Of a DNA stretch of 64,000 bases, positions 10,417 through 31,540 are shown one piece after another. The position numbers were made by a program, and so were the translations under genes. The stretch comes from Strobilurus pachycystidiatus (taxonomy: Eukaryota > Basidiomycota > Agaricomycetes > Agaricales > Physalacriaceae), in assembly GCA_019915135.1 (NCBI GenBank), contig JAHLMK010000031.1, positions 186,001-250,000 on the forward strand, written 5' to 3'. Position 1 is the stretch's first letter, and each line of letters begins with the position of its first letter. A model generated the notes under the pieces. It saw only the letters and a program-made list of their open reading frames with translations. It was not told the DNA's origin and searched no databases.

Positions 10417-12083
10417 TTTGGTCTGTACTACTTGTTGCAATAGTGATTCCTCTGCAGCCCATTTTCCAGCATCTCCATAAAGAAATGCTACAGCTTCATA
10501 TATATATATCAGACTGATGTTTTCATCCCAACTATGTATAGCATGTGGAAGAATATATCTCCGAAGAGCATATGAGGTAGATGAGTTGTCCCATGGCATA
10601 CCACGACTGAGTATAAGAAGTGCTGTCTGCTTTACTTCAAGATGAGGAAGTGCTATAGTGTATGTCACACATTCATGAATGACAGAATGAAATGAAAGCA
10701 AATCACTTTCAGGTGCATATGTAGCAAGAGAAAGTTTGACTATCTCATCAACTGCTTCATCAACAGAGCAACAAGAGATATTGTCCAAAAGCTTCTGTAT
10801 GGTAGTTGAGACTGTTTCATCACCTAAAAGTTCAAGCTCAGAAGAGTTCTCTGCAGCATTGCGCAGCATAGCAATGGGAATATCAGCATAGAGATAGAAG
10901 GAGCACAAGTGCATGATGAGCTTTGCATTATCTGAGAGTTGCTCAAAGCTAAGAAGGAATGCACCAAGAGTACTCTGTGAATAGTGATCTATGCTCTGTT
11001 GTGCTTTAGAGTCAAGAAGCTCTTTGCGACGGTCTTTAAAACGCTCAAGATAGTCTGAAATAGAGCAAGTGGTGTGAGAAGCAATATAACTCCCGGCTAT
11101 GGCAATTGGTAAGGCATGATATGCAAAAGCCTCAATAATGTCTCTGGCAGCTGTATGATCATTGGATTTAGCTCGTGACAGTAGCATTGTAATTGCGGCA
11201 TCAGGCTCAAGGTCATGGACAAGAATATCACAACTCTTAGATGCATATTCATGAATCTCAATATTACGACTTGTAATGATCACATTGCCATGATTAGAAG
11301 AGGGGAGAAAGGGTGATAAATCAAGTGCAGGATCGTCTGCATTGTCAAAGATGACAAGCCAGTTCTCTGGAGTACCATTCAAATAGCTGTGGAGAGATTG
11401 TTGAAGTTGCTCTGTAACAAGTTTGTCCTGCTGGGCAAGTTTTTCATTTGAACTAGCATTGACAAAGATAACATCGGAGAAGCTATATAAGCACAATTAG
11501 CTGTAGATTAATGAGTGAAAGAAAATATATACATACTTTGCTTGATTCTCTTTTACAAATTTTGTCACTATTTGTGTCTTCCCTGTGCCACCTTTCGCGA
11601 CCAGTGTTGCTACACGCTTCTTCTTCTCAACTGGCTTTACTAGTGCTCCCCTCACCCTTTCAATAATAGCCTCATCATCAATTGAATCATCCAACTTCCA
11701 GGATTGCCCTGGTGATGCAAGGATCCCCAAATCCTGATCTGTGCCAACTAACAGTACACAAAGCTTTGAAGCCCGTGGAAGACAGGCAACAAGATTCCTG
11801 TCCATGATGTTGGTAACAATGAGCAGGAGCCCAGGCCTTGAGAAAATAGCAGAGCGGGCGGGCCCAAGTTCAGCTGCACCACTGAACAATTTGAGATCTG
11901 ACTCAAGACGCTCCTTGGAGCTTGCATTCACATAGTGAACACCTGAGAAGCTGACAATAACTAATGAGATTTGGCACATTAGAAAAACCACACTGCATAC
12001 CGTGTTCCAAAATCTCTAACAAATATATTCAGAATAGACTCCATACGGGTGGATGATGCCTCTCCTCCAATGAGTGCCGCCAC

Positions 12084-12087
12084 ACGC
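12084..12087. repeat. Target-site duplication, left copy (ACGC)
   Basis: ACGC sits directly left of the LTR 5' TG and again directly right of the LTR 3' CA (28673-28676). Removing one copy restores exon 4 of NLR-A to the 326 nt seen in NLR-B. That supports a 4 bp duplication. Confidence 0.85.
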
Positions 12088-13788
12088 TGATACGCATTGT
12101 AGAATCCTAGTGCCAGAACCAGGGAATTTTGCGATTCCTGTAGGAGTCTATGCCAGGACTTCCAGTCACAGCACAACGACCAGAGAGACACACGGAGAAA
12201 CTACCTTAACGCAGGCAAGTCTCCAGGGACCAGGACTAAGGGATACGCGCCTTTAGGACGCGGTATGATCGACCGATCATACTCCTTAACTCCGAATATC
12301 ATTATCCAAGCGTTGTACTCTTAAAACCAGGAGTTAATTCAACCGTGTCGGTCATGCAACGACAAGTGCCTACCAGAAATAGCACTACGGAAAGTACCCA
12401 GGCAGGAGATACTCTACCAAGAAGGCTCAAGGAGTTTACTCGTGCTAAGTCAGAACTCGCGCGATCAAGAATAGATCAAAGGAGAAGATCTCTCTTCCGG
12501 GCCATGGCGCCTTCGGAATAGTGATCTCCGCTCCGACGCCCCGCACCAAAGAAAACGGACTTCGATCCGCCGCCGCCGATCACTAAAGATAGACCTGGCT
12601 AAAAGGCCCGATCATGGACCTTGTACCTCACTGGAACTCACATATTGATGTGGCGTCACTGAGTGTCGAAAACGAATCACCTTCCAAGCGCTAAGGATAA
12701 AGCCCAACCAACGCCTAAGACACGAAAGAACTCGTTAAGGAGTTTTGCCAAGACAAGCGGAACCTCGGGAGACAGAAATAGACTTAAGGAAGAGCCAGAC
12801 CGGTGGTGTGGCGCACTTGGCGCTGACCAAGTGTTCAGTCTTCTCCCGGGTCGGCTGTTTCGAACAGGGATAGCCAATCAGGACGCTAGTACAGAATGAC
12901 TCGACCTCCGAGAGGCCCGACGAGTAGTAAACCCGCTTACAGTACAGAATAGTAGGAATAGTATAAAAGGCCAGCAAGTGCCAGTAGATAGGTAGCTTAG
13001 TGCCCCCACAGTATCCGCTAGTAATACGCAGTCGCTGTAGTGAATCTAACTCGAGTTTCGGCTCAACTTACTCTGAATTTGAGAGAACCCAAAAGACCTT
13101 GAAAGCCCCAAAAAGACCTTAGAACCATTTAGGCGATATCAGGTGTTAGCAAACTCCTTGAAGAACTCATAGGTTCCTATCCTCCAAGTCACTAAGACCA
13201 TACCAAACGACACCACTTGGCGTTAGACCCTTGTGTTCGTTAGAAGGCCGGGTTGCAAGTAGTTCTGCCTTGCAATCACGCTCTGTTGTGAAGTATTCGC
13301 CTTTGAGGAGTTTAGTTGAGTTTGAACGAGTGTTGTTATCGTCTGAAACACCTTACGGAATCTTTGGTCCCAGTCCAAGACACTAGAAGTTTGGTTTAAA
13401 GACAAGGAAATCGCCTTACTTGGTAGCAGTCCAGTAGCATAAACACCTACGGTAGCGGCCTGCCATAAGACAATCACCTTGTATAAAAGAACGATCAATA
13501 AGAAGGAGCTACATTGCCTCGCGCTGTTTAAGGTCTCCGTGCGTTGTGACTTCGGCCTACGACTTTCAGATTATCTTGTTCGACTTTGTGAATCAATCTC
13601 CCTACACCCCCTAAAACTACTCGAACGCAAGTTCGTAATACATCTCTATTGTTCCAATACCAAAAGTACTTGTTCCTTTGAACAACTACACCAGCCTCGC
13701 TCCCACAAGGAGTATTAGTGAGATATAAGGATAGATAGGATAGATTTCATAGTCCCTTTTTAGAGGTCTATTTCGAACGTGCATATCA
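12088..13788 (+). repeat. 5' LTR (1,701 bp)
   Basis: It begins TGATACGCATTG and ends GTGCATATCA. TATA-box candidates are at 12962-12969 and 13482-13489 (TATAAAAG in both). The second would leave an R-U5 of under 300 bp. It carries a 7 bp tandem duplication at about 12224-12236 (CCAGGGA then CCAGGA) that the 3' LTR lacks. I assign no protein to the short frames inside. Confidence 0.95.
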
Positions 13789-13793
13789 TATTT

Positions 13794-13811
13794 TGGAGCC
13801 CACCGCGAGGG
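13794..13811 (+). promoter_or_regulatory. Candidate primer binding site
   Basis: TGGAGCCCACCGCGAGG starts five bases after the 5' LTR. It begins with TGG, as expected for pairing with a tRNA 3' CCA end. The implied tRNA acceptor would start GCCCACC. I did not identify the tRNA. Confidence 0.5.
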
Positions 13812-14356
13812 GGTGATATATTTTGATTTCAACGAAACCTACCAAGGCGTCTGCGAAGTCTTAAATTCCAAACAACGACCTGGCTGCTAGGAACTCTGAA
13901 CGTTATACCAACAGTCAGAACCAAGCAAAACCGCCACCACCAAAAGCAAAACCAGTCATTGCAGGATCATCAAGTCCTACAAACTCTGGGATAGCAAGTC
14001 GGCTTCGAACCAAACGACCTACAGCCGGATCTCTCTTCAACGGAACTCCCCAAGAAGTTGCTGCAGCTCAAAGGCGTTTAGCGAACCCGTCAACACCAAA
14101 GTCCAAAAAGTCGAAACGTGGAACAAAAGTACCACCGACGCCCCAAGCATCTACTAGGAGAAGAGCTACTTCAGATCCTGAAACACCTTCGCGAGCTACT
14201 ACCAGCCAAAGGCGATCTTCAGCCTCCGAAATCTCGCCTAGTTCTACGAGCTCCACACCTTTTGGAAGTCCTCTAACTAGTTTAGAAGACGACGACAGTT
14301 TACCACCGATTCCTACGTTTATTAACTTCGGAAACTCCAACCCACGAACCAACACT

Positions 14357-15718
14357 ATGCCCGCAATGGCTGCCGTTAGAAAGTTAATCCCTTCTGACGA
14401 ACTCAGTGATGAGGCAAAAGCAGAAATCAAGGACAAAAAGGTTCCTATACCTTTCTCCAACAACGCCCCCAAATGCAAAGGCAAAACTGGAGAAGATATT
14501 AGGGAATTCTTCGCGACTTGTGACTGGATCTTCGATGTCTCGAACGTCAAGGAACAAGGAACCAAAATGGAGATGGCTGCCTTCTACGCAGGCCATGAAC
14601 AGAGGAAACGCTGGCACCGACATGCAGACTATGCAAAAGGTGTTTGGGCAGACTTCAAGGAATCAATTTTAGCCTCCTACTCGAAGGGTAAGAACGATCC
14701 GGAGTATGTCCCTAGCGACCTCAAGGACGCTTTGGAACCTTACATCTCCCGGCCTGTTAATAACAAACAGTATTGGGAAGCGTTCTCGCGCGAAGTTCTC
14801 CATATCCTGGAAGCTTTGATTCAGAGTGGAGAAGTAACCAACAAAGGTGCTATTGAGTATATAAAGTCCTCCCTTACGGAAGGAATCTGGCACAATGTCC
14901 TAGGAGATCTGAGGCAGGAAGTGTTGAAGACAGCAGTCGCTGGAACTACTCCAACGTATGATTTTACCTTGGATCAAGTAGCCAAGGCAGTCTCCAATTA
15001 CTTCCTCACGGACAAATGGGTATCTGGTCCCCCAACCACGAACGCGTTTTCCAGGGACTTAGTCCCTATGCCAACGTCGCGGGTCAAGACCGAGGAATTG
15101 GACGAATACCTGAACCGTATAGCCTCCCTCCAGGACGTTATCCAGAAAGGAGAGAAAGATCGAGAGGAATCTAGAAAGAATGATCAGAAACTCTTGACGG
15201 CAGTCCTGGAGAGTCTGCAGAGGACCAACATTCAAGGTCTGCGTTCACAAGGCTATATACAAGAAACACCTAGTGTGTATTTACAAACTCCAATGAATGG
15301 CGTTTCGCTTCCGACCAATCTGCCTAACGGGATCTATAAGACTCCGCAAGGTGCGATTCCTCCAGGCAACAAGTTTGTAGTAAACGATGGAAGATGTTAT
15401 TTCTGCCGGGATGTGGGGCATATAATCGCCAATTGTCCGGTGAAAGAAATGTGTGAAACCCAAGGTCATATATTCAAACCAGGGGGGACAAACATCTACC
15501 ACTTACAAAATGGACAGCCCATTCAAAGGACCAATGCGAAGCAACCGCTAAGTCCTTGGGAACAGGTACAGAAATACCAGCAAGAAAATGCAACCAAGGT
15601 CTCCGCGTTCCAATCCCAAGAAGATGAATTCGCGCCGGATCCTTCGGTATATATGCAAATGACTCCCCAGGAAAGCGAGTTCAGTAGTGAACCATTTTCG
15701 GGTTTCGGCAAGGCTTGA
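14357..15718 (+). CDS. gag: Gag-like protein with CCHC zinc knuckle
   Basis: From the first ATG this is 453 residues. It holds a helical capsid-like region with FREWCDWIFDV-type composition (the segment reads IREFFATCDWIFDV, then WADFKESIL) and, near residue 350, a CYFCRDVGHIIANC zinc knuckle (C-x2-C-x4-H-x4-C) for RNA binding. The frame stays open upstream to a stop at 13862-13864 and adds about 164 basic, Ser/Pro-rich codons with no ATG. The real N-terminus may therefore use a non-AUG codon or a spliced leader exon. The stop codon overlaps the next start as TGATG (15716-15720). Confidence 0.85.
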   Translation: MPAMAAVRKLIPSDELSDEAKAEIKDKKVPIPFSNNAPKCKGKTGEDIREFFATCDWIFDVSNVKEQGTKMEMAAFYAGHEQRKRWHRHADYAKGVWADFKESILASYSKGKNDPEYVPSDLKDALEPYISRPVNNKQYWEAFSREVLHILEALIQSGEVTNKGAIEYIKSSLTEGIWHNVLGDLRQEVLKTAVAGTTPTYDFTLDQVAKAVSNYFLTDKWVSGPPTTNAFSRDLVPMPTSRVKTEELDEYLNRIASLQDVIQKGEKDREESRKNDQKLLTAVLESLQRTNIQGLRSQGYIQETPSVYLQTPMNGVSLPTNLPNGIYKTPQGAIPPGNKFVVNDGRCYFCRDVGHIIANCPVKEMCETQGHIFKPGGTNIYHLQNGQPIQRTNAKQPLSPWEQVQKYQQENATKVSAFQSQEDEFAPDPSVYMQMTPQESEFSSEPFSGFGKA

Positions 15719-16893
15719 TGAAGGAAGGAGTGCCTAGTGCACAGACTCCTCCGGAGAGCCAGTTGACTGTTCAAACTCGACAAAGTAATAAAGATAATCA
15801 TTCCAAACCGGTTTCAACACCGGAAAAGACAAAAATACCTTGGCCTCGGGACCGGGTCTCCGTGGTAATACCTCCTAAAGCCCCGGTACCGCCAAAGGTA
15901 ACCTTCACTAAACCTGAAGTCACCCAAGAAATACCTCCTGTGGATCAGGAAATTCTTGAGGAGATTCTGGCTATGGAAGAACCTGCGCCTGCAGTGCAGC
16001 CTAAGGTAGATTCAACTCTACCTTCGAGTACACCAACGAGCCAGAAGACCTTACACCCTCAGCAGAAGGTCAAAAGTTTCCAACGCCGCAGCTTAGCGGA
16101 AGAGTTGCTACACAAGAATCCGAGCTGGAGAGAAGCATGGAAGTTCTTACTTCCGGAAGCTCTCTTAGCAACGAATCCTCCGTGGCAGCAAAGCATATCG
16201 GACTTCATTAGAAAACGAAATGCGCCGGTTTCGGTACTCCAACAGGAAGAATTGACCGAAACGGTACAAGACGACTACCAACCGGAGTTATACTCAGTTA
16301 ACTTACAAGCACGAGACAACTTGCCGATTGGAGGAATTGTAGTTCACGATGCGGTGGAACAGTTCATAAACCTCACTGGAGGACAATATACTGGACCATT
16401 CCACATGACTACGGGAAACATTGCACCAGAAAACGCTGATCTAAGGACTTTCTGGCCTATGATAAACCGCAACGGAAAGAAGGAAAGTCTCATTGACGGG
16501 GGTTCTCAAATCGCCTCAATCTCGCTGAAAGCTGCGTTGGAACTAGGGGTTTCTTATGATCCCAACTTCAAAATAACCATGGAAAGCGCGGATAAAGGAC
16601 GGACTAGTACACTTGGGTTAGCCCGCAATGTACCCTTCGACTTCGAAGGGATTGTGTACTACCTCCAGTTGCATGTTCTGGAGGACCCCGCCTATGAAGT
16701 CCTATTAGGTAGACCATTCGAGATTGTATCCAATCTGGTAATTACGAACTTGTCCAATGGAAACGCCTTGGGGACTCTGACAGATAATACCAATGGCAAG
16801 AAGTTGACCATACCGTCGTACCGACGAGGACAAATACCTAGGCATATGTTACCACCGGGGCAACAGGGTTTTCACCTGGACTCAAGGAAGTAG
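15718..16893 (+). CDS. Retropepsin-type protease ORF
   Basis: The ATG at 15718 overlaps the gag stop (TGATG), giving 391 residues. A proline- and charge-rich N-terminal half precedes an aspartic protease domain. The catalytic motif reads SLIDGGSQIASIS (about 16,485-16,520), that is D-G-G-S rather than the usual D-T/S-G. The flap side has VLEDPAYEVLLGRPF, matching the ILGRxF hydrophobic-Gly motif of retropepsins. The final part overlaps the pol frame by 52 nt in the -1 relation and holds a GGGTTTT slippery heptamer. It probably supplies PR alone by termination at 16893, and PR-Pol by frameshifting. Confidence 0.82.
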   Translation: MKEGVPSAQTPPESQLTVQTRQSNKDNHSKPVSTPEKTKIPWPRDRVSVVIPPKAPVPPKVTFTKPEVTQEIPPVDQEILEEILAMEEPAPAVQPKVDSTLPSSTPTSQKTLHPQQKVKSFQRRSLAEELLHKNPSWREAWKFLLPEALLATNPPWQQSISDFIRKRNAPVSVLQQEELTETVQDDYQPELYSVNLQARDNLPIGGIVVHDAVEQFINLTGGQYTGPFHMTTGNIAPENADLRTFWPMINRNGKKESLIDGGSQIASISLKAALELGVSYDPNFKITMESADKGRTSTLGLARNVPFDFEGIVYYLQLHVLEDPAYEVLLGRPFEIVSNLVITNLSNGNALGTLTDNTNGKKLTIPSYRRGQIPRHMLPPGQQGFHLDSRK

Positions 16894-19800
16894 GAAACGC
16901 CTACGGAGAGGCGGTGTTGATCCTGGAAAGATCACCTAATGGTAATGTAGAAGTCAAGCAAACATGGGTACCAGGAGAAAATGAAGCACACTTCCGAGAA
17001 GGAGCCTTAACCTCCCTCTACCTGAAGAAATCTCCTGCATACATAGACAAGGCGGCAAAAAGCCTTAGGCAACAACATGCCTTTATGAAAGCCTCTACGG
17101 TACCGGGAACCGTCCCAGCTAGCCTGGTAACGCCTCGGGGTTTATTGAAAGAAATCAACACCACCAAGGTACAAGGATTTCGAAAGGTGTTTAACATAAA
17201 GGGAATTGCCGAAGATCAAGAACGAACTAAGTCCCACGCCACAGTAACCATGAATCTCTTCTATGGGGTACCCCAGGAGTTGCACAAATCATTCTCAGAA
17301 CTTTCAGTGATGCTACCTAAAGATTATGTGACGGAAGCACAGGACAAGTTCCTGGAGTTGGAAAGTCAACGTCCAGTACGAGGCGTGTTCGCCGGGAAAA
17401 AGTATAAACCGATGGCGCTGAAAACCAAAGCCCATCTGGGGACTCTACCCGAAGAATTCAGGATCAAACGACATATCAAAGGCGATCCTCTAGCAGGAAT
17501 GCCTGAACTCAGTCCAGATCCCCCGTCCTTCGTACCAACTGGAAGGTATACTGCGGAAAGACGTGAACAACTACAAGCGGACCACCCTGGAGATTTTCTG
17601 ACTTCGGTGGAAAGACGAATCGTAGACCAACTTATGTGTGGACAGAATGCGGGATTCGCCTGGGAGGAAATGGAAAAAGGACATTTTGACCCAGAGTACT
17701 TTCCACCTGTCGATATACCCGTTATTCCACATACTCCGTGGGTGTTAAGAAACATACCTATACCCCCAGGAATCTACGATGAAGTCTGTAAGATAATCAA
17801 GCACAAACTAGACTCAGGCGTATATGAACCTTCGAACTCTTCATATCGCTCAAGGTGGTTCTGTGTAGTGAAAAAGGATGGCAAGAAACTCCGTTTGGTA
17901 CATAGCTTGGAACCTCTTAACGCGGTAACCATCGCACATTCGGGGTTGCCTCCTGCTACAGAGGAGTTAGCTGAAGCGTTCGCAGGAAGAGCCTGTGGAG
18001 GTACCCTGGACCTGTATGTCGGGTATGATGAACGGCTACTGGCCACTGCCTCTCGCGATATGACTACCTTCTCAACACCTTACGGTGCTTTACGATTAAA
18101 GACTTTACCTATGGGATGGACCAATTCGGTTCCGATATTTCACGACGACGTTACAACCATTCTAATGGATGAGATACCGGCGTTCACAAGACCTTACATC
18201 GATGATGTACCTGTCCGTGGTCCAGCCACTAGATATGTACAGCCGGATGGAAGTTATGAAACGCTTCCGGGGCATCCAGAAGTTAGGCGCTTTGTCTGGG
18301 AACACCTTCTAAATATGAATCGTATTATACAACGAATGAAATATGCCGGAGGCACTTTTTCTGGACATAAAGCCATCATATGTGCGGAAGAAATAGTAGT
18401 CGTAGGACATGTCTGCACTTATGAAGGAAGGAAACCGGCAGAAGAAAGAGTTAAGGTGATTTCTGATTGGCCACCTTGCAAGGCACTGACCGAAGTCAGA
18501 GCTTTCCTAGGGACCGCGGGGATCTTCAGGGCCTTCGTGAAAGACTACTCGAAGAAAGCCTTACCTCTTACCCGGTTGACTAAGGACATAACGAAGTTTC
18601 AATGGACGGATATTGAACAAGCTAGTATGGACCTCCTCAAGGAAGCAGTTAGGACTTGTCCGATGCTAAAACCCTTGAATTACGAATGGTCCACTCCGAT
18701 CACCTTGTCGGTAGATACTTCTTACCAAGCGGTAGGATATTACCTATCCCAAGTAGATCCGGATGACCCGAAGAAAAGATACTATGCCAAGTTCATGTCT
18801 TTAACACTGAACGACCGAGAAGCCAGGTACTCCCAAGCAAAGAGGGAATTGTTTGGTCTGTTCCGGGCATTGTCCGCGTGTAAGTACTATCTCCTAGGTT
18901 GTAGAAAACTAGAGATTGAAACAGATGCTAAGTACATCAAAGGGATGCTGTCGAATATTGACTCCCTAGCCAATGCCAACCTACAAAGATGGGCAGAGGA
19001 GATTTTGATGTACCATTTCAAGCTTATACACGTACCAGGAAAAGTCCATGGTCCAGACGGTCTTAGCCGCCGTCCTGCTTCGGAGAACGACGAAGTAATA
19101 CCCAGACCCGCTCAAGGGGATGAGGACGATCGAATCAATAGCTTTGAATATCAAGAACCTGAGGACCTTCCGACCGAAGACAAACCCCTGGAGTTTGAGA
19201 CATTCAGATATGATATCGATACTAGGGGAGGCTACAGTCAGGAAATAGCTAGAGGTCCCTTGCCAAAGCATATGAAAGTATCTAAGGCGATCAGGACCTC
19301 CGCGTTAACTGGTATCAAGGACATTGAGGAGTGGATGGAGATCGAGGAGTTCCCTAGCTTAGTAAAAAGCAAGCGAGAACGCCTTTGGGAAAATAGGTTG
19401 CCGGATCTCCAGCCACACTTGGTTGGGAGTAAAGTCCAGGAGGATGAGGACTTCGAAAAATGGAGTCAGGACTTTTCAATGAGACACGAGAAACTATATA
19501 GATCTCACTTAGATGGAAATCTCCGCCGGGTACTCCTCCCGAAGGAAAGGATTCCGATTTGTAAAGCTATGCATGACAGAGCTGGTCATAAAGGTCAGTA
19601 CTCGGTGCTTCAGCTACTTACCAAACGGTTCTGGTGGCCAGGGATGGAGGTAGACATACGGTGGTATGTGCGATCTTGCCTTATATGTCAAAAGAGACAG
19701 AAACGAAACATAAAGATAGCGCCAACCATCACCTCTACACCTGGGATATTCGAGAGGGCCTACATAGACACCTTCCGAATGCCCAAGGCCGGGGAACATT

Positions 19801-20753
19801 CAGCCAAAAAGAAACAACCATCCAAGTGGGCTGGGTTCAACGCGGTTACCGTGGCAAGGTGTGGTCTGACAGGTTGGCCAGAAGCCAAAGCTCTCCGAGA
19901 GGAGACAGCGGAAACACTGGGAGAATGGATCTTTGAGGACATTCTCTGCCGCTGGGGCTGCATCAAGGAGATTGTAACGGACAATGGCCCAGCTATCAAG
20001 AAAGCCCTTAGACACATAGAGGAGAAATATGGCATCACGGGTATCCTGATTACCGCCTATAACAAACAGGCAAATGGTAAAGTCGAAAGAGGACATTGGG
20101 ATATTCGCCAGTCACTCTTTAAAGTGTGTAAAGGAAATCCGGAACATTGGCCGGAGTATCTACACGAAGTCCTATGGGCAGAACGAATCACTATCAAAAG
20201 GAGTATAGGAACTTCTCCCTTCCATGCTGTAACGGGCTGTGAACCTATAATGCCTATGGACCTGGTGGAGATTACTTGGCTGGTGGACATGCCAGATCAC
20301 CTTGTATCGCACTCGGATTTGGTTGCACTCCGAGCAAGGCAGTTAATAAAACACAAAGGCGATACGGCAAGGTTAAAGTCTAAAGTCCTTCTGAACAAGC
20401 AGAAGGCAGCGGAGAAGTTCATGGAGGAATTCAACAACAGCATTCCGTGTTATGTATTCAAAACAGGTGAATTAGTGTTAGTACGAAACACCCGGATTGA
20501 AGCCGAAATGAACGCCAAGTTTAAAGAACGCTTTATGGGACCTTTTGCGGTGGTTTCCAGGACATCCGCAGGGAATTATGTGGTATGTGAGCTGGATGGC
20601 ACCATCTGGAGGGATAAGATAGCTCAATTTCGAGTAATCCCCTTCGTAGCCAGAAGGGACCCTATTGCTTTAGGAGAAACATTCTTCTCTAGGCTTAGGC
20701 GTATCAGTCGCGGAGTCGGAAAAGCGTTGGATATGATTGCGAAAACTACTTAG
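16842..20753 (+). CDS. pol: Pol: reverse transcriptase, RNase H, integrase
   Basis: The frame is open from 16842 with no early ATG (the first Met codon is near 17,090), as expected if it is entered by a -1 shift from the protease. RT blocks are SRWFCVVKKDGKKLRLV, GTLDLYVGYDE, TPYGALRLKTLPMGWTNS and the catalytic YIDD near 18,196. RNase H carries LSVDTSYQAVGYYLSQ, KRELFGLFRAL and IETDAKYIKGML. Integrase has an HHCC zinc site ending CLICQK and a DDE triad at YIDTFRMP, IVTDNGPAI and GKVERGHWDIRQ. A GPF-type (GPY/F) C-terminal module follows near 20,540. The order and motifs are those of a Ty3/gypsy polymerase with every catalytic residue present. No chromodomain was seen. Confidence 0.95.
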   Translation, partial: AYVTTGATGFSPGLKEVGNAYGEAVLILERSPNGNVEVKQTWVPGENEAHFREGALTSLYLKKSPAYIDKAAKSLRQQHAFMKASTVPGTVPASLVTPRGLLKEINTTKVQGFRKVFNIKGIAEDQERTKSHATVTMNLFYGVPQELHKSFSELSVMLPKDYVTEAQDKFLELESQRPVRGVFAGKKYKPMALKTKAHLGTLPEEFRIKRHIKGDPLAGMPELSPDPPSFVPTGRYTAERREQLQADHPGDFLTSVERRIVDQLMCGQNAGFAWEEMEKGHFDPEYFPPVDIPVIPHTPWVLRNIPIPPGIYDEVCKIIKHKLDSGVYEPSNSSYRSRWFCVVKKDGKKLRLVHSLEPLNAVTIAHSGLPPATEELAEAFAGRACGGTLDLYVGYDERLLATASRDMTTFSTPYGALRLKTLPMGWTNSVPIFHDDVTTILMDEIPAFTRPYIDDVPVRGPATRYVQPDGSYETLPGHPEVRRFVWEHLLNMNRIIQRMKYAGGTFSGHKAIICAEEIVVVGHVCTYEGRKPAEERVKVISDWPPCKALTEVRAFLGTAGIFRAFVKDYSKKALPLTRLTKDITKFQWTDIEQASMDLLKEAVRTCPMLKPLNYEWSTPITLSVDTSYQAVGYYLSQVDPDDPKKRYYAKFMSLTLNDREARYSQAKRELFGLFRALSACKYYLLGCRKLEIETDAKYIKGMLSNIDSLANANLQRWAEEILMYHFKLIHVPGKVHGPDGLSRRPASENDEVIPRPAQGDEDDRINSFEYQEPEDLPTEDKPLEFETFRYDIDTRGGYSQEIARGPLPKHMKVSKAIRTSALTGIKDIEEWMEIEEFPSLVKSKRERLWENRLPDLQPHLVGSKVQEDEDFEKWSQDFSMRHEKLYRSHLDGNLRRVLLPKERIPICKAMHDRAGHKGQYSVLQLLTKRFWWPGMEVDIRWYVRSCLICQKRQKRNIKIAPTITSTPGIFERAYIDTFRMPKAGEHSAKKKQPSKWAGFNAVTVARCGLTGWPEAKALREETAETLGEWIFEDILCRWGCIKEIVTDNGPAIKKALRHIEEKYGITGILITAYNKQANGKVERGHWDIRQSLFKVCKGNPEHWPEYLHEVLWAERITIKRSIGTSPFHAVTGCEPIMPMDLVEITWLVDMPDHLVSHSDLVALRARQLIKHKGDTARLKSKVLLNKQKAAEKFMEEFNNSIPCYVFKTGELVLVRNTRIEAEMNAKFKERFMGPFAVVSRTSAGNYVVCELDGTIWRDKIAQFRVIPFVARRDPIALGETFFSRLRRISRGVGKALDMIAKTT
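16866..16872 (+). promoter_or_regulatory. Putative -1 ribosomal frameshift heptamer G GGT TTT
   Basis: In the protease frame the codons CAG GGT TTT create X-XXY-YYZ with X=G, Y=T, Z=T. The site lies inside the 16842-16893 overlap with the pol frame, and the pol frame is -1 relative to protease. A short hairpin (CGCCT at 16898-16902 pairing with AGGCG at 16909-16913) lies 25 nt downstream, farther than the usual 5-9 nt spacer. A longer pseudoknot was not evaluated. Confidence 0.6.
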
Positions 20754-21235
20754 ATCAAAAAGTAGTAACGAAGAGGCCGTACCAAAAAGATTTGGATGCA
20801 AATGACAGTTAAGGATGCAAGACTGGCAGCAGAGGTACTCGAACCGGCGCTCGGGTTTGAAACCAAGTCCGAGGCAAGGCGCTCAGCCGTTGAGCCAGTG
20901 GTGTCCGAAATCTAGCAAGTGCTCTGGCAGGATGACGGGGACGTCATCAGAAAAAGTAAGAAGGGAATAGAGGGACAATGGTCCCATTTATTCTAAAAGA
21001 CTATAATTTCGAAATAAAAATGAAATTTTGGGCTCTAAATACGGTACATGAGACCTTCGTAACGAGGAAATGGAAAGAAAAAGGGTCATAGCCCCTTGAG
21101 ACTATGACGCACGACTCGGGCAGGGCTGTGCCCGGCTACGAACGAGAAAGCTTAAAGGTGATGAGCAACGAAGGTGATGCACGAAGCGAAGAAAAGAAGC
21201 CTGGGCAAGTCCACGCACCTTCAACCGCACCCACC
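20754..21235. other. Pol 3' untranslated spacer and promoter region of accessory gene 1
   Basis: No ORF of substance. It contains the minus-strand tRNA-like segment listed separately, then an A-rich stretch near 21,000 and the leader of the gene that starts at 21236. Confidence 0.55.
20834..20897 (-). other. tRNA-like / Pol III promoter-like segment
   Basis: On the minus strand TGGCTCAACGG (20897-20887) matches box A, and GGTTCGAGTACC (20845-20834) matches box B. About 41 nt separate them. The D-arm GCTC-loop-GAGC pairs perfectly, but I could not form the anticodon, T and acceptor stems. It is more like a tRNA-derived relic or SINE-type head than a functional tRNA. Confidence 0.35.
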
Positions 21236-23297
21236 ATGTCGTCGCCAACACCAGAGGTCGCCCCGGAGAACAAAGTGCGTCTCCACCAACAAGGCACAGC
21301 AGGGAGGCGAACTAACTTACCTAAAGGAGAAGTCGCCCACCCCTGCGAACGAAAAGGAGGCCTCCCCAGAGGAAGAGCGCGTCGAAAAGGCTGTCAAGGT
21401 AAGCCAGACGTGACAGGGAAAAAGAAAAAGAACGGCTAAAAACGAGTCAAAACAGGTAGACGCGCGTCCCGAGGAACTACCTGATGCAAGGCCGTTGTTC
21501 GACTATAGCGGGTTCCTCCTGAACAACCGCGTACCAGTCGGATTGCGAGCAGCGGGTATAGACCTGGCGTTAGCACAGGAGCTGTCGGCAACGCCGGAGC
21601 GTACCAGAAAAATTCTGGAGGGACATGGCTACAAGACCTACCGTGCCGATGCCGTCTTCTGGACGGAATTTCAGGATGTGCTCGAGACGCTAGACGCCGC
21701 CATCGACTCACCTCTGGAACGCGTCGAAACCGCCCTCACTCGGGCCCTCGATCAAGTGGAACTCGATCCAAAGAATAACGAACCGCCGGCGCCTCACTTT
21801 CTAGGTAACCCCCGCGCTCGGCCAGACATAGCCCTCGAACTCGAGGAAGACGACGCGCAAGTCGTATTTCTCGTGCCCGAGCAGCTCTGGTCCTTCGTAC
21901 CACGAACGGAGGTAGCGGAGGAATTCTGGGGTCGACTGATCCCGGCACTCAAGGACGCCCGCACCTCCCAGCCCGTCTATTTCTCCTTCCGCCACATCCT
22001 GGACCTTCTGATTGAAGAAGTGGCGACGCTCAGCCAGCTTCAGCTTTTCACGAAAGAAGAAGCCGCGCCGGAAGCCGCAGGACGCGACGAGAAGGAGGGC
22101 GATCAGGGCGAAGACGGGGAACGTGTGGGAACGCCGCTGCGAACGATGCAGGATTTGGCCGCCGAGGAAGGCAGTGACCAGGAAGAAGACGAGCTGGCAA
22201 CGAAATCCCCCACACCTGTAGCCACGCGGCCCCGTCCCCAACCAAAGCCCCACTCACCAGCCAAAACCATGAAGGCAGTGGAAGTCCCCGCCGCCAAACG
22301 ACACATGGCGAAGAAAGGGCTTGGGCCCAAGACAGTTTACAAGTACGTGGTTAAACGATTCGTGGCGCCGTTATACCCTCCTAACACCCGAATCAGGCCC
22401 AAAGTCATCGCCAAGGTCGAACCACGAGACAAGGAACCTTCGGAGGTCGAGGAGGACGCCGAAGGAGAAACCGAGGCCGAAGAAGGAACGACGGAAGCCT
22501 CCAGCAAGATGACCAGGCGCGTTCCCCTGTACGACGACGACGCGCACTGTCTCGCCTGTGAGCAGCGTAGCGTCGTATGCACATTCAACCGGATGCGCTC
22601 GAGCGACCGCGGGAACAAGACCAGCTGCGACCAATGTTCCCTGAGTCGGGGAATCTACGGTCCGTGCCTGCTCGTCTGGGACCGGGAGCCAAAGGCGCCA
22701 ACTTGGATGAGTCTCGATGGGCGTCTTCGGGCCAAGTTGCAGAAACTGGCGCAGCCGCTGGTCAGCGACAAGAAGATCTCGAGCGCGCGTTATGTCTACC
22801 CTGCGCGTCGAGGAACGGCCGTCAAGTCGGAAGTGCAGGAGAAGAAAGAGGCAACGGCGCAGTCAAAGAAGCGTCGGAGAGATGTCGAGGAAGATAGCGA
22901 GGTCGAGGTGGTCGAACCCCCGAAGAAGAAGGAGAAGGGGAAGGCCAAGGCGAAGCGAGCCCCGACCCCGGTACCGGACGACGACGACGACGATGAACTC
23001 GAGGAGATCGAAGCCCCGCGCGCACGCCGAGAGTCGACGCGTCGCGTCTCTCTCATGTCGCCCCTCCGCCTCGTCACGGAGAAAGAGAAGGCTGAGCAGG
23101 ACAAGAAGCGAAGGGCCGCCAACGCAGGCGAAGGATCTTCGCGCCACACCGGCGCGCCAACCTCATCCGCGCGCGACTTCCTCCCCTCGATGGATCAACA
23201 AGAAGTCACCGACCGGGTCAACCTGATCCTGTCGTGGTACTTCACGTTGCCGCCCACTGCGCAGAAGAAGGTCAGGGAGATCATCGGCAAGAAGTAG
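21236..23297 (+). CDS. Retroelement accessory gene 1: spliced, Zn2Cys6-like protein
   Basis: Exons are 21236-21274, 21327-21398 and 21456-23297. The introns (52 and 57 nt, both phase 0) start GTGCGT and GTAAGC, and the first has an ACTAAC branch site. The ATG context CACCATGTCG is strong. The protein is 650 residues. The N-terminal half has helical, acidic segments such as YFSFRHILDLLIEEVATL. Near residue 402 lies a cluster C-x2-C-x6-C-x15-C-x2-C-x9-C, close to a fungal Zn2Cys6 binuclear cluster but with longer spacers. A disordered tail follows with basic KKKEKGKAKAKR-type and poly-Asp stretches, so a nuclear, nucleic-acid-related role is plausible. It lies in sense orientation 483 nt after pol. 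An AATAAA at 23407-23412 may end its transcript. I do not recognise the family. Confidence 0.75.
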
Positions 23298-23836
23298 GAC
23301 TTCGTCGCGGACAGTTTTCCCTTCGCCGCCGCCGCCTGGCTTTCTTAGAACAATTTACGAACATTTTATCTACATGTACATCTACCGCACGCACCCGCCC
23401 GACAACAATAAAATCCGCTTTTCATTAAAAACAAGTGTGATGTTTATTTGAAGAAAGAAAAGGACCTCGAGACCTAAGGTGCTAAGGCAAAAACGCCTTA
23501 AAAAGCCAAGTCCAGGCAGGGCAAACTTCTCAAAAGTCAAGAGGAGTTTCGAATAAAGTGTAAGGGAAATACAAGCGTGTATAAAAGCGAACTAAGGAGA
23601 AATTCTATAGGACCTGGCTAAGTAGACTAAACGACTAAGGTCTTTTATAGACTAAGGTGGTTAGACTTAGACGAGTAAAGGAGTTTCTATGAGGAAATAA
23701 GACTAAAAACGATTCCAATCCGGACCCACTGGGAGACGCGCTAAGCGTTCGTAGAAGAAACCCGAAGACCTAACATCAAGAATCATGATATAGTTCTCCA
23801 GGAGTTCGTAGTCCAGTGCAGAGGCGTTGGACCAGT
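23298..23836. other. Convergent 3' region between accessory genes
   Basis: AT-rich sequence between the 3' end of accessory gene 1 and the 3' end of the antisense accessory gene 2. It holds an AATAAA (23407-23412) and an internal copy of the polypurine-tract motif (23530-23546). No coding signal was seen. Confidence 0.55.
23530..23546 (+). repeat. Internal copy of the polypurine-tract motif
   Basis: TCAAAAGTCAAGAGGAG is identical over 17 bases to the motif directly before the 3' LTR (26961-26977). It could be a central polypurine tract or the relic of an older element end. Confidence 0.55.
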
Positions 23837-24821
23837 CTATTTCCCAGAAGGATGGAGTGACAAAAGACAAATGCTCATCGGCTCGCTACAAGCACAGAAG
23901 TTACAAGGTGTGCGAAGCGTGGGAAGGAGTTGACGAACGGTGTTCGAAGGAACTTCAACGTGGGGAGCCAAACGCCTAAGTCGAGTAGGTCGCATCAAGG
24001 CTCCCAACTTAGGAAAACCATACAAGGCAGAATTCGCTCGCTGGAACTCCGGCCACCACTTCATAACGGTTACGATGGACGGAGGCGTTTGATCGTATTG
24101 AACAGGGAGGATCCGCAAGGCGTTTGGATCGATAATCAACTCGCGAAGAGTGGAATCGAATCCCATATAACCACCGAAGGTGGATTCCACCTGGAAGCAA
24201 TAATCAGACAAGGCGGTTCTGGAGAAGGTGTTTGCGCACCATGAACCGGGGAATAATGTCCTTCATCAAGTCGGGATGCACGCCCGGTATGTCCAGCAAA
24301 CCATACCCAAGGAAGTTATCAAGGGCGAAACCGTCGAGGGTCCTTCCATTGACGGCTCGGAACCAGGACTTACAGAGCTCCACGGCTCCGTAGTACAAGG
24401 GAAAGAAGTACCGGCGAAAGCCAAGGTAAATGACGGGGTTTTCGTAGAAGGCGGGATCCCACATATACGCCAGACGACGCTGGAGAGGAAGTAAGCAGGC
24501 ATAAGGGCCTAAGGCGTTGTTACGCACCAAGGTATACAACAAATACCGCAGGGACGGGACATCCAAAGGCTTCCCTTCACCAAAATGAAGCACTGGCTCT
24601 TCTAAGGCAGCTACCGCCGCAGTATCGTCAACCGTGGAGAGAGTACCGTCGTCATAGCGGATAACGATGCTGAATCGCCGAGCGAAGGTATACAATTCCA
24701 AGGCGCTGGTCAAGGCCAATTCGCCAAGTAGGGCCTCGAGCTCCTCCGGAGCAGGTTGGTTGTGCAAAGGGATGCCGCGAAGGCGAGTGTCAGAAAACGA
24801 AGGAAGAATCGGGATAGGCAT
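23837..24821 (-). CDS. Retroelement accessory gene 2: antisense, spliced, unknown function
   Basis: Exon 1 is 24821-24240 and exon 2 is 24190-23837. The 49 nt intron (GTGCGC...CTGAT...TTCCAG, phase 0) joins two frames that are both open only around it. The protein is 311 residues. The start ATG at 24821 has good context (ACCGCCATG), and a TATA box (CTATAAAAACGCC) sits about 35 nt upstream. The first half is acidic-hydrophobic with ALTSALELYTFARRFSIVIRY and LRYLLYTLVRNNALGPYACL. Aromatic-rich YLGFRRYFFPLYYG follows. No signal peptide, transmembrane anchor or known domain was recognised. It is transcribed against gag-pol, head-to-tail with accessory gene 3. The last 50 codons are less convincing and may hide another intron. 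Confidence 0.68.
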
Positions 24822-25272
24822 GGCGGTTATGGCAAAACCAGAAGCAACGCTGGCGTTTTTATAGAGTACCGGGACCGCCGTGACGATTCAAGGAAAAGGA
24901 AGAAATAGCTTAAGCGAGTCTAGGAATAAAGCTTAAGCTACTCCGAAGACCATTAAAGAGACCTAGGCGCTGTAAAAACTTAGGATGAACGATTCGACGA
25001 AGGTGATCGGGAATTCCCGATCGAACTTACTTAGTTGATGAAGGCGATCATTGGACTTAAGAAGGATCGCCGGAGTTCTAACGGATCGCGCCAAAGGGTA
25101 AAAACAAGGGTAGTCGTGTTGAGACGGCTGTGTACTAAAGTAGCTACGGGAAACAAAGTGCTACCGGACCTACAAGGGATAAAACGAAATCCGAAGCCAG
25201 TGTAAACATGAAAGGAGAAAGAGCTAGACGACTGGCTAAGACTTGGAGGAGGTTGAGACCACCTTTAGGAAA
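24822..25272. other. Spacer between antisense accessory genes 2 and 3
   Basis: It holds the minus-strand promoter of accessory gene 2 (TATA at 24856-24863) and, further right, the 3' end region of accessory gene 3. No coding signal was seen. Confidence 0.55.
24856..24863 (-). promoter_or_regulatory. TATA box of accessory gene 2
   Basis: TATAAAAA on the minus strand lies about 35 nt before the ATG at 24821. The 13 bases CTATAAAAACGCC are identical to those upstream of accessory gene 3. Confidence 0.6.
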
Positions 25273-26780
25273 CTACTGGGCTTGGTCCACTCCGTCTAAG
25301 GCGGAAATATACAAATCCCGAGTCGACAAAACGAACTGAATACGACCCCGGATCTCATTGTAAGACGAGATAATGTCGTGGCGGTATTGACGCTCCAACT
25401 GGAGAAGTCCCGGCGAAATATTGGGATCATCCACACCGGCCAAGCGGGTCATGCGCTTGTGAACCTGTGTCAAGGCGGCCTGCAAACCGTTGATATACTG
25501 GGGCGCTAATATCCAAGGAGTCAGAAAGGAGAAAGACAGATCAAAGTAACAGGACGTACCCGCATCCAATTGCTTGAGCAAGACCGGCTCGATCATAAAG
25601 GTCGAAGGACGAGCAGCCTTAGCGGCGCGGCGAGAAAGGTCGTCGGGGAGCTTGCGCTTAGGAGGAAGTTCCTGACCGTTGAGGGATCCCAAGGTTTGCA
25701 TGGCGCGCTGATAAACACGGGCGTTAACGTCCATCTTGGGTAGGGCAGCAAAAGGAAGATAACGCACAGAAGTGCTCTAAAGGGGAATCCCAATCAGAAC
25801 CAAGTAAAGGCAAAAAGACCAAGAGTAATAAACGACTCACCGCTTCCGCCTCTTTGAAAAGGTTGTTGGACAAGGACATCTGTTGGAAGAAATCAGCCAG
25901 TTGAAGGCGAAGGGCTATAAAGGAATTGAGCGTACGTTCTCACCAACGACAATCACGGACTCCTCACCGTCGGTGTCGGCTTCTGCAACATCGTCAGCCC
26001 AATCAAAATACTCGCGCTTGAAGAATCGCGCACGGCCATCGGCATCCATGTCGATGTCTTCTTCCGCCTGTTTCTCCATAGCGTCGGTGATAACTTCAGG
26101 AGATTTCTTGCTTTTTCCCTGTGAAGAGGTAAGGCGTTAAGAAAGACCTAATGAACAAGTATGACAAACCTTGACCTTGGGGTCCGGTTTAACGAAGACG
26201 TTGGTCGGATGCATGGGATGATCAGCAGGCAAAGGCTGGAACTGCGCGTTCGACATCTTCTTGGCGGTGTTCACCAAAGGTTGGAAGATGTGCGCGATGT
26301 GGTGCGAAGGCGTTTGAGGATGAATGCCAAGGAGATGAAGCGTCAATCCGAGATAGTTCTTGACGTTGTGGAAGAACAAGACAAGGTCGGATGGGACCTT
26401 CGAGTCGGAAGGAACGGACTTGATGTCGGTGTTGGCCATCTAGGAGGAATTAAGGAAACGACGACAGGCACGAAGGATAAAAAGGGACACACCAAGACCG
26501 CCTCCATGATTTTGTCGACCTGCTCGGTGATCTGCTTGGAAAGTTCCATGTTGAGGCAGGCCTTTTTGATGTCGAGACGGTTGAGGCGAGGGAGAGCCAT
26601 CGACATGCGAAGCCCGAGGACCGTAAAGGTGTCCGGGGTGGTCGCAGGAGGATCGTATTCCACGGAATAGGCGAGGACGGCGACGGAAGCGTCCTTGTGA
26701 GTGGCGATCTCCTTCGCGGAAGGAAGGTAAGGGACCGAAGGCAAAAGACGAGCGCAGGAAGTCCAGGATTTGGGAGCCAT
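25273..26780 (-). CDS. Retroelement accessory gene 3: antisense, five exons, unknown function
   Basis: Exons are 26780-26493, 26439-26170, 26118-25936, 25879-25841 and 25776-25273. The four introns (53, 51, 56 and 64 nt) are all phase 0, with donors GTGTGT, GTTTGT, GTACGC and GTGAGT and acceptors TAG, CAG, CAG and TAG. The protein is 427 residues. It starts MAPKSW, has a helical segment ELSKQITEQVDKIMEAVL at the first junction, an acidic middle (EEDIDMDADG, EADTDGEE) and a basic KRKLPDDLSRRAAKAAR stretch. A C-terminal part follows with FLTPWILAPQYINGLQAAL and a coiled-coil-like region. I recognise no domain. The consistent phase and open frames across four introns make the exon chain credible. 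It has its own TATA box 47 nt upstream of the ATG and runs antisense to gag-pol. Confidence 0.7.
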
Positions 26781-26826
26781 GTCGAAGGAAAGTAAGGATG
26801 AAAACGCCCAGGAGATAAAACAGGCG

Positions 26827-26834
26827 TTTTTATA
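26827..26834 (-). promoter_or_regulatory. TATA box of accessory gene 3
   Basis: TATAAAAA on the minus strand lies about 47 nt before the ATG at 26780, inside the 13-mer CTATAAAAACGCC shared with accessory gene 2. Confidence 0.6.
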
Positions 26835-26960
26835 GGCGAGCAAGGTGAAAATTGCCAAGGACCTTGATAAAGATAGAACGGCAAAAGGTCTGGGGCTTTG
26901 CACCAAGGCAGAAGGAATAAGCGTTTTTCGCGATACTACTAGGATGTCGGGGACGACATT

Positions 26961-26978
26961 TCAAAAGTCAAGAGGAGA
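26961..26978 (+). promoter_or_regulatory. Polypurine tract before the 3' LTR
   Basis: TCAAAAGTCAAGAGGAGA ends immediately at the 3' LTR TG. Its purine-rich end AAGAGGAGA fits a plus-strand primer site. Confidence 0.7.
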
Positions 26979-28672
26979 TGATACGCATTGTAGAATCCTA
27001 GTGCCAGAACCAGGGAATTTTGCGATTCCTGTAGGAGTCTATGCCAGGACTTCCAGTCACAGCACAACGACCAGAGAGACACACGGAGAAACTACCTTAA
27101 CGCAGGCAAGTCTCCAGGACTAAGGGATACGCGCCTTTAGGACGCGGTATGATCGACCGATCATACTCCTTAACTCCGAATATCATTATCCAAGCGTTGT
27201 ACTCTTAAAACCAGGAGTTAATTCAACCGTGTCGGTCATGCAACGACAAGTGCCTACCAGAAATAGCACTACGGAAAGTACCCAGGCAGGAGATACTCTA
27301 CCAAGAAGGCTCAAGGAGTTTACTCGTGCTAAGTCAGAACTCGCGCGATCAAGAATAGATCAAAGGAGAAGATCTCTCTTCCGGGCCATGGCGCCTTCGG
27401 AATAGTGATCTCCGCTCCGACGCCCCGCACCAAAGAAAACGGACTTCGATCCGCCGCCGCCGATCACTAAAGATAGACCTGGCTAAAAGGCCCGATCATG
27501 GACCTTGTACCTCACTGGAACTCACATATTGATGTGGCGTCACTGAGTGTCGAAAACGAATCACCTTCCAAGCGCTAAGGATAAAGCCCAACCAACGCCT
27601 AAGACACGAAAGAACTCGTTAAGGAGTTTTGCCAAGACAAGCGGAACCTCGGGAGACAGAAATAGACTTAAGGAAGAGCCAGACCGGTGGTGTGGCGCAC
27701 TTGGCGCTGACCAAGTGTTCAGTCTTCTCCCGGGTCGGCTGTTTCGAACAGGGATAGCCAATCAGGACGCTAGTACAGAATGACTCGACCTCCGAGAGGC
27801 CCGACGAGTAGTAAACCCGCTTACAGTACAGAATAGTAGGAATAGTATAAAAGGCCAGCAAGTGCCAGTAGATAGGTAGCTTAGTGCCCCCACAGTATCC
27901 GCTAGTAATACGCAGTCGCTGTAGTGAATCTAACTCGAGTTTCGGCTCAACTTACTCTGAATTTGAGAGAACCCAAAAGACCTTGAAAGCCCCAAAAAGA
28001 CCTTAGAACCATTTAGGCGATATCAGGTGTTAGCAAACTCCTTGAAGAACTCATAGGTTCCTATCCTCCAAGTCACTAAGACCATACCAAACGACACCAC
28101 TTGGCGTTAGACCCTTGTGTTCGTTAGAAGGCCGGGTTGCAAGTAGTTCTGCCTTGCAATCACGCTCTGTTGTGAAGTATTCGCCTTTGAGGAGTTTAGT
28201 TGAGTTTGAACGAGTGTTGTTATCGTCTGAAACACCTTACGGAATCTTTGGTCCCAGTCCAAGACACTAGAAGTTTGGTTTAAAGACAAGGAAATCGCCT
28301 TACTTGGTAGCAGTCCAGTAGCATAAACACCTACGGTAGCGGCCTGCCATAAGACAATCACCTTGTATAAAAGAACGATCAATAAGAAGGAGCTACATTG
28401 CCTCGCGCTGTTTAAGGTCTCCGTGCGTTGTGACTTCGGCCTACGACTTTCAGATTATCTTGTTCGACTTTGTGAATCAATCTCCCTACACCCCCTAAAA
28501 CTACTCGAACGCAAGTTCGTAATACATCTCTATTGTTCCAATACCAAAAGTACTTGTTCCTTTGAACAACTACACCAGCCTCGCTCCCACAAGGAGTATT
28601 AGTGAGATATAAGGATAGATAGGATAGATTTCATAGTCCCTTTTTAGAGGTCTATTTCGAACGTGCATATCA
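26979..28672 (+). repeat. 3' LTR (1,694 bp)
   Basis: I found it identical to the 5' LTR wherever compared, apart from lacking the 7 bp tandem duplication. It ends GTGCATATCA followed by the ACGC target duplication. Confidence 0.95.
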
Positions 28673-28676
28673 ACGC
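28673..28676. repeat. Target-site duplication, right copy (ACGC)
   Basis: It matches 12084-12087. The sequence to its right continues exon 4 of NLR-A on the minus strand. Confidence 0.85.
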
Positions 28677-30338: not shown

Positions 30339-31540
30339 GGTCGTTCTGTTGTTGTGACTGTTCGGTATCAAGGAGCGTCGAACGTGTATTCCACGCTGTC
30401 TCCGGCAATCCTGGGTCCGTGTATTGATTGATTGACAGAATGTAACACGTTGATGTCACACTGATCCTTTCCTCCACCATCGGGTCTCGGCACATTTCGT
30501 TCCGCTTTCGCCGTCATCCTACTCAGGTGGACTTGAGTGGTGATTTTGTTTTCTCTTCGGCGTGAGCGACGCATACTATCTGCCCAGCGCTGTCGCTCAC
30601 AGCATCCGCCAATCCTCTCCGCTGTGGAGGCGTCCATTCTTTCTGACACACAGCACGCTGACGCCCGTGCCCTTCCTCTCACAGGCCACCGCCAATTCCA
30701 ATCTTTGCCGCGCATCACCCCAAATGTCCGCGGCGACGGCAGGACGAGGACTGTCTTCTCAGCAAGCCGCCTCCTCCGCCGTCTACCGTTCCTCGACCTT
30801 CACCCAATCGAAACAACTCTCGCAGACGCCTCCTAGGTACCGACAGCTGCTACCCTCGCATTCACAGAACACGAACCGGCCCATGACACGTCGGAGATGG
30901 TGCCGCACAGCGTGCGTTCGCTTGTTTCCTCTTTACCATCATCTCCGAACGCGACCCCGAAAGCAGAATGACATCTGAGAGACGAAACATACTGACAGGC
31001 GCCGCGAAGAAATGGACGACGGAAGCATGGAGGTGCGCGTATTTGCTTCTGATTTCGTTTCATTCGTGGACGGAGGCGACTCATACCGCCACTCTTGTCT
31101 CCTTCGTTCGCTCGACGCTCTCTTCTCTCTGTCCCGACTCCTCACCGATGCCTCTTCCCTCGTTCCTCCTCCCCCTCTCACCTCATCGCAATCCCTCCCC
31201 CTCCTCGGACCTCGTCAACGCCCCTCGCCCCCCTCTCTCCCTCCCCTTCCCTCACCCTCCCTCCCTCCAACCCTCCTCCCCAGGAGCGACGGGACATGGA
31301 GAATATAATCTGGCTTATGACCTGCATGCATAGCGTAATTTAGCACAGCGGCGTGTCCAGACTGCAAGCCCTCAGCGCGTACAGGTGTTGTTGGGAAGGC
31401 GTCTGTGGGGGTGGGGACGATTGTGAGTCAGTCAATCGGTGGCTTTGATGGACAGGGTGGTGTCTTGGTGTGGCGCTCGACGTTCGACCCGTCTCTACCT
31501 CTCCTCTCTCACGCTCGCTCTCTCCTCCTCGCTTGTTCCT
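30339..31540 (-). promoter_or_regulatory. NLR promoter/leader module, copy A
   Basis: About 1.2 kb upstream of NLR-A matches, in inverted orientation, 52.31-53.59 kb upstream of NLR-B. Shared pieces include a CACTGATCCTTTCC motif, a GCGTGAGCGACGCATACTAT block near 30,560, a pyrimidine-rich tract (31,160-31,285) and the GCGCTCGACGTTCGACC block. Short frames inside belong to no recognised protein. Confidence 0.65.

Follow-up and report, generated by a model that had tools for sequence, protein, structure and literature searches.

A Ty3-type LTR retrotransposon of Strobilurus pachycystidiatus with three predicted intron-containing cargo genes and an internal copy of its polypurine tract

Results

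A retrotransposon with genes downstream of pol

We analyzed 64,000 nucleotides of DNA from the basidiomycete Strobilurus pachycystidiatus (assembly GCA_019915135.1, contig JAHLMK010000031.1, positions 186,001 to 250,000 of the forward strand; hereafter the window), drawn from a 51.8-Mb genome in 61 contigs, and find at window positions 12088-28672 a long terminal repeat (LTR) retrotransposon carrying three predicted genes, designated S, A, and B, between its pol gene and its 3′ LTR. The 5′ LTR (12088-13788, 1701 bp) and the 3′ LTR (26979-28672, 1694 bp), both on the plus strand, have no substitutions over 1694 aligned bases and a single 7-bp gap; they end in TG..CA and are flanked by the target-site duplication ACGC (left copy 12084-12087, right copy 28673-28676). 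The pol open reading frame (ORF; 16842-20753, plus strand, 1303 amino acids stop to stop) encodes reverse transcriptase (RT), RNase H, and integrase, and its best PDB match is Ty3 Gag-Pol (E 3.9e-38), which places RT-RNase H at residues 313-744 and the integrase downstream at 902-1135. By its LTRs, its target duplication, and the order and relationship of its pol domains, the element is a Ty3-type LTR retrotransposon. A polypurine tract (PPT) lies at 26961-26977 on the plus strand; a putative primer binding site and this PPT, both recognized by sequence, are present at the LTR edges.

Gene S occupies 21236-23297 on the plus strand and is predicted to encode 650 amino acids in three exons (21236-21274, 21327-21398, and 21456-23297) separated by introns of 52 and 57 nt, both in phase 0. 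Genes A and B are on the minus strand: A (23703-24821, 322 amino acids) has four exons (24528-24821, 24240-24479, 23939-24190, and 23703-23885) and introns of 48, 49, and 53 nt, all in phase 0, and B (25273-26780, 409 amino acids) has six exons (26493-26780, 26170-26439, 25936-26118, 25841-25879, 25560-25776, and 25273-25505) and introns of 53, 51, 56, 64, and 54 nt. An earlier sequence-only reading of this DNA had proposed an LTR element in which a Ty3-type pol is followed by cargo before the 3′ LTR, with one sense and two antisense genes; the boundaries are exact, the LTRs near-identical, and the gene models bear out the arrangement. Its 650-residue S with two introns agrees with ours, but it gave A and B 311 and 427 residues, and it counted seven introns where we model ten (two in S, three in A, five in B) because it missed one exon of A and two introns whose lengths are divisible by three. 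By reconstruction, the lengths of 311 and 427 fit models retaining the 48-nt intron of A, with an early end to A, and the 54-nt intron of B.

The cargo recurs across copies and families

Exon-by-exon searches of the same genome returned 107 S, 132 A, and 145 B matches, counts that are lower bounds because 40 of 210 candidates were scored in the LTR search, 70 of 83 in the S search, and 116 of 291 in the RT search. Ninety-six of the 116 scored RT matches fall into three families, identical to the window RT at 98-100%, 89-94%, and 79-83% (families 1, 2, and 3). At 15 of 19 family-1, 35 of 55 family-2, and 18 of 22 family-3 RT loci (68 of 96 in total), A and B are both found in antisense orientation no more than 14 kb downstream; this pairing uses hand-entered places, with second exons of the same gene dropped and families sorted by RT identity, and proximity can borrow a gene from a nested neighbor. 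None of the 20 more distant RT matches (42-56% identity) has both A and B, and one has A. The order and orientation of the cargo thus recur across copies and families, and the cargo belongs to the element.

Locus L063 (C3:2544500-2548000), read in six frames only and with no RT found, holds a diverged fourth version in which B, A, and an S-like gene are arranged as in the other families. Its S-like protein has five cysteines and is without the second C-x2-C pair of S.

Between families 1 and 2, identity is approximately 94% for RT, 63% for B, 50% for A, and 37% for S, and between families 1 and 3 it is 83% for RT and 32, 28, and 28% for B, A, and S, respectively. Judged by these identities the cargo diverges much faster than pol, and exchange of pol could account for part of the gap.

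Gene models and the retention of introns

Comparison of the window genes with those of family 2 (locus L061) shows that exon length differences are zero or multiples of three in 13 of 13 cases, intron length differences are not multiples of three in nine of ten, and intron phases agree in ten of ten, a pattern by which the predicted exon-intron structures of S, A, and B are more than chance. A 29-nt third intron in our first model of B was rejected in favor of a 56-nt phase-0 intron, with which the gene again agrees with family 2; the sequence of this region is identical in all 15 family-1 rows compared. In family 3 (L062) the order, orientation, and intron numbers of A and B are as in the window and one A intron has a different phase; the family-3 S model is provisional, one intron as bounded ending in non-AG. 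Ratios of nonsynonymous to synonymous divergence (dN/dS) between families 1 and 2 are 0.52 for S, 0.15 for A, and 0.20 for B, with dS of 1.4-3.1 near saturation and with the B value computed, like the B protein, Pfam, PDB, and tblastn searches, on the first B model, which is 9 residues longer.

The sequence TATAAAA is present on the minus strand 42 nt upstream of the A start codon (24857-24863) and 54 nt upstream of the B start codon (26828-26834), and across the three families TATA boxes lie 39-55 nt upstream of four of six A or B start codons. These candidate promoter elements are in line with separate antisense transcription of A and B, as in the plant element Grande.

The first intron of S is present in all 28 loci that hold the region (27 by pattern, and L038 by eye); these represent about 26 separate elements since L045/L046 and L055/L061 are each one and the same element, and three further loci are without the region. 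Patterns for the spliced S junctions of family 1 and family 2, not of the S2 and S3 versions described below, gave 0 and 0 genome matches at up to 3 mismatches, and the unspliced family-2 junction gave 19. Retention of intron 1 together with no spliced junctions indicates that splicing at S is rare or absent in packaged RNA, or that spliced RNA is not copied. The proposal in the sequence-only reading that genomic RNA escapes splicing at the sense gene thus gains support as an inference.

Introns are the usual mark of genes without passage through RNA, and here ten, two of them on the sense strand, are kept in cargo genes that propagate only by reverse transcription and whose proteins have diverged until they are 28-63% alike. 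How packaged RNA is kept unspliced while the mRNA of the element's own gene is spliced is a general question that becomes testable in a fungus.

A second polypurine tract

An exact 17-nt copy of the 3′ PPT lies at 23530-23546 on the plus strand, between the stop codons of S and A, and is the only 17-mer occurring twice in the internal region (13789-26978). Its 15-nt core is found in 19 of the 20 family-1 loci that cover the internal tract, irrespective of the S version, the exception being L052, a degenerate copy; L038 has one extra A. Genome-wide there are 36 exact matches to the 17-nt tract, arranged as 16 pairs and 4 singles, and none to a reversed control; 15 of the 16 pairs are spaced 3.38-3.44 kb apart and one 7.9 kb. 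Family 2 has a tract of its own, with 15 nt common to both places, internally at eight of eight loci and terminally in the two loci that reach it, and in family 3 the single locus examined has 15 nt particular to that family at each of the two positions.

An exact internal copy of the 3′ PPT is thus maintained in three families. The two tracts of each family match each other and differ from those of the other families, as would be expected if one RNase H recognizes both, and the internal PPT is probably a second plus-strand start. Second PPT copies that act as extra plus-strand starts are known from lentiviruses (the central polypurine tract) and from Ty1 (PPT2); here the copy is about three quarters of the way along the internal region, at the border of its sense and antisense genes, and in a Ty3-type fungal element. 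The co-varying tract makes a clear prediction on second-strand synthesis in a long Ty3-type element.

S is an exchangeable cassette

Family-1 copies carry S in several versions, which we refer to as S1 (the window type), S2 (86% identical in protein over the last exon, with two sub-types), and S3 (36-37% identical). We found S3 at just four loci; the next relatives are at most 38% identical. Outside S the copies are closely similar, with identities of 97.5-99.9% at the start of gag, 96.5-99.7% in pol, and 95.6-100% in the A exons; in non-S1 copies identity is 88.8-94.6% in the spacer preceding S and 90-99% in the stretch that follows S. LTR sequences differ by about 1% between S groups, scarcely more than among copies of one group, and we saw no link between S version and LTR sequence.

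In S2-type copies the replaced block spans 21170-22404 and includes the leader, both introns, and the N-terminal part of S; identity is 73-77% across approximately this interval and then returns to 93-98%. The block replaced in S3-type copies spans 21222-23347, within which there is no DNA alignment except for 58 bases. Synonymous divergence between S1 and S2 is 0.7-1.4 in the N-terminal part (a range that leaves out the 28-codon figure of L039) and 0.06-0.25 in the C-terminal part; for the S3 copy (L051) we give protein identity only. S is therefore a swappable cassette: copies are approximately 95-100% alike in gag, pol, A, and LTR, but their S proteins are 36-86% alike. The presence of old S variants in young copies points to recombination, and the dN/dS of 0.1-0.2 in the variable part argues against fast adaptive change between S1 and S2. 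These copies form a natural recombinant set for measuring template switching.

Discussion

Origin and maintenance of the cargo

We think it probable that a Ty3-type lineage gained a module of three genes, sense S and antisense A and B, before the families split, and has kept them as genes of its own. Antisense-strand promoters of their own would drive A and B, whose transcripts would be spliced and whose introns would be inert in the genomic RNA. S would be spliced in an mRNA and the packaged genomic RNA would stay unspliced at S, a problem of spliced and unspliced RNA that complex retroviruses, Cer1, and Ogre-type elements also meet. Plus-strand DNA may start twice, at the 3′ PPT and at the internal PPT between S and A, so that the long element would be finished in two segments, and recombination between co-packaged genomes would swap S versions among otherwise near-identical copies. 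More tentatively, S may act in the nucleus to regulate the cycle of the element that encodes it, perhaps in the handling of genomic RNA in the manner of CERV or Rev, although this is a guess by analogy that we hold with rather little confidence.

One alternative, raised as a possibility in the sequence-only reading, is that host genes were captured once and are carried passively by a few copies, maize Bs1 being an example of such transduction. The multi-exon genes are host-like, and A and B are without known element relatives. Nevertheless, the same three genes recur in one order in three or more families, between which the cargo proteins share only 28-63% identity, the genes show purifying selection and conserved intron phases, and even among the hand-listed places that could not be paired with a scored RT by the 14-kb downstream rule (10 of 80 for A and 14 of 82 for B), some are beside family-1 S fragments or LTRs. 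Recurrence of the cargo across copies and families thus leads us to reject a one-off capture in general, and we regard it as very improbable. A different origin is that another mobile element inserted into the ancestor just downstream of the original PPT and 3′ LTR and survives as a remnant, the antisense A-B block, perhaps together with S; the internal tract would then be a relic of the old 3′ end. This fits the position of that tract between S and the antisense block, its equality to the 3′ PPT, and the separate and opposite disposition of the cargo. A relic would be expected to drift, yet the tract pairs match exactly, and differently in families 1, 2, and 3, and there is no LTR-like sequence after the internal tract in the contexts printed, for which no dedicated search was made. 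We consider this scenario unlikely, and since it accounts for origin and not for present maintenance, it is compatible with retention of the module as the element's own genes.

Several observations weigh against that retention and its proposed mechanism. The search of other copies for the cargo, which the sequence-only reading had suggested, succeeded for A and B at 68 RT loci as described, but at 17 of the 55 family-2 RT loci neither gene was detected, and at least three of these keep S. One of the 17, L064, was read downstream and has exon 1 of B close behind pol, from which we conclude that S, A, and most of B were deleted there; its RT is in a 1323-amino acid open frame. Family-2 copies without A and B imply that the module is dispensable in cis. 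No TATA box was found within 200 nt of S in family 1, family 2, or the S3 copy, nor upstream of family-2 A and family-3 B. Searches of S, A, and B alignments against a large protein database, Pfam, and PDB, and of B against viral contigs, were uninformative, as was structure prediction for S, so that these checks, also suggested by the sequence-only reading, gave nothing to go on. The Zn_clus Pfam match of S has E 0.44 in one of four members, and the AlphaFold model of S exon 3 is poor (mean predicted local distance difference test, pLDDT, 45.6; predicted template modeling score, pTM, 0.24).

The same family-2 loci, including the open RT frame at L064, favor an explanation in which the module is a passenger, its genes being selfish or neutral and of no help to the element, and deletion derivatives faring equally well or better; that the cargo is far more diverged than RT also agrees with this. 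Against it are the intact frames in many copies and the dN/dS of 0.15-0.52 over a long divergence, with dS saturated, and deleted copies could receive help in trans like non-autonomous elements, leading us to judge a mere passenger improbable. It is more doubtful still that S serves between copies of the element as an allelic factor for specificity or exclusion, its variants kept by an advantage of rarity and re-shuffled by recombination. Old S variants do occur in young, near-identical copies, and between S1 and S2 the variable part is N-terminal and the cysteine part constant; but dN/dS of 0.1-0.2 in the variable part gives no sign of positive selection, three or four versions are few, and plain recombination with old lineages gives the same picture without selection. 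We would likewise attach little credence to a wider proposal in which S is a multi-allelic control locus, with versions as old as the family split shuffled in a system of matching or exclusion between elements or between element and host, and in which S and the second PPT would separate the sense half from an independently transcribed antisense half, the introns surviving passage through RNA.

Beside L064 (C4:401900-408000) there is a different pol-like ORF with a chromodomain-like end, together with a 954-amino acid open frame.

Relationship to known elements and the possible role of S

The predicted S protein is charged, and six cysteines are kept in nine of nine aligned proteins, spaced C-x2-C-x6-C-x15-C-x2-C-x9-C in the window protein, a spacing that differs from that of the classical Zn(2)Cys(6) cluster. 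The Pfam model of the six-cysteine binuclear cluster does not place S among Zn(2)Cys(6) proteins, and Foldseek with the exon 3 model returned 15 matches at E up to 10, none of them at or below 0.001. A possible parallel comes from Cer1 of C. elegans, in which CERV, described as a nuclear protein containing a cysteine-rich region, is translated from a spliced mRNA and is needed for export of unspliced genomic RNA (PMC10309623). On that description CERV is the closest functional analogy to S; CERV acts in a nematode, and a role of S like that of CERV or Rev in export of unspliced genomic RNA is a guess.

Among published elements the nearest are Boty, plant elements with antisense ORFs, bdelloid elements with ORF3, and giant elements. 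Boty/BcGypsy1 of Botrytis cinerea, like the present element a Ty3-type LTR element of a fungus, has an additional antisense gene, brtn (Zhao et al. 2011, cited in PMC8365987 and PMC7264820). It differs in having one additional ORF rather than three genes, and the passages on Boty in these two accounts do not mention a sense gene like S, an exchange of cassettes, or a tract inside the element. The sequence-only reading knew of no described fungal element with this cargo; this stands for the set of S, A, and B, for which searches of an open-access library returned no LTR element, although fungal repeat libraries may hold such elements unnamed, and it requires qualification in that Boty, as described, carries one antisense gene. 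Additional ORFs are also listed for the plant LTR elements Grande (gene23), RIRE2, Retand, and PvRetro13, with transcription from an internal promoter in Grande and sense ORFs expressed through splicing in Bagy2, in a review (PMC7264820). The word intron is absent from the text of that review, whereas here there are ten introns, in both orientations and in three families of one genome.

LTR elements of bdelloid rotifers have a varied ORF3 and spliced messages (PMC5408684), and Burro, Ogre, and Terminons are giant elements (PMC6431247). As they are portrayed there, these elements share with ours a large size and modular extra ORFs exchanged between lineages, but types of ORF are exchanged among them and here versions of one gene are swapped within one family. 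Antisense multi-intron gene pairs are not mentioned in the sections of these papers that describe them.

Other features of the element and its insertion sites

A probable primer binding site (TGG...), read from the sequence, lies at 13794-13810 on the plus strand. Its 14-nt core, CCTCGCGGTGGGCT, has 136 genome matches, including the equivalent place in other copies, and matches also occur near pol of families 2 and 3 and of more distant families; the putative primer site is thus common to many Ty3-type families in this genome. A tRNA scan of the window found no tRNA gene. The gag ORF (13865-15718, plus strand, 617 amino acids stop to stop) contains a CCHC knuckle under the Pfam cut-off and is followed on the plus strand by an ORF with a weak aspartyl-protease match (15691-16893, E 0.016). 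The Pfam scan of window proteins recovered RNase H and the integrase zinc domain in addition to these weak CCHC and protease matches, and the RT and integrase-core models were without a match.

Eleven LTR pairs of family 1 have 0-7 substitutions per approximately 1695 bases within a pair, and ten have a complete 4-bp target duplication, the eleventh being cut by a contig end. The duplications of the LTR pairs (L001-L028) are all of the form NCGN (ACGC, ACGG, GCGG, GCGT, and CCGT), which may point to insertion centered on CpG. Loci L005 and L022 have LTRs whose 1.5-kb flanks on both sides contain neither gag nor B sequence, and these are probably solo LTRs. The flanks of one family-1 copy (L009/L014, on C27) match the border of exon 1 and intron 1 of gene A, and this copy was therefore inserted into another copy of the same element. 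The window element itself sits within the coding sequence of a host gene on the minus strand (8635-12087 and 28677-30600) with TPR repeats and a weak NB-ARC match (NLR-like), a single frame of which crosses the site once the element and one copy of the duplication are removed; because the LTRs are identical, the insertion looks young.

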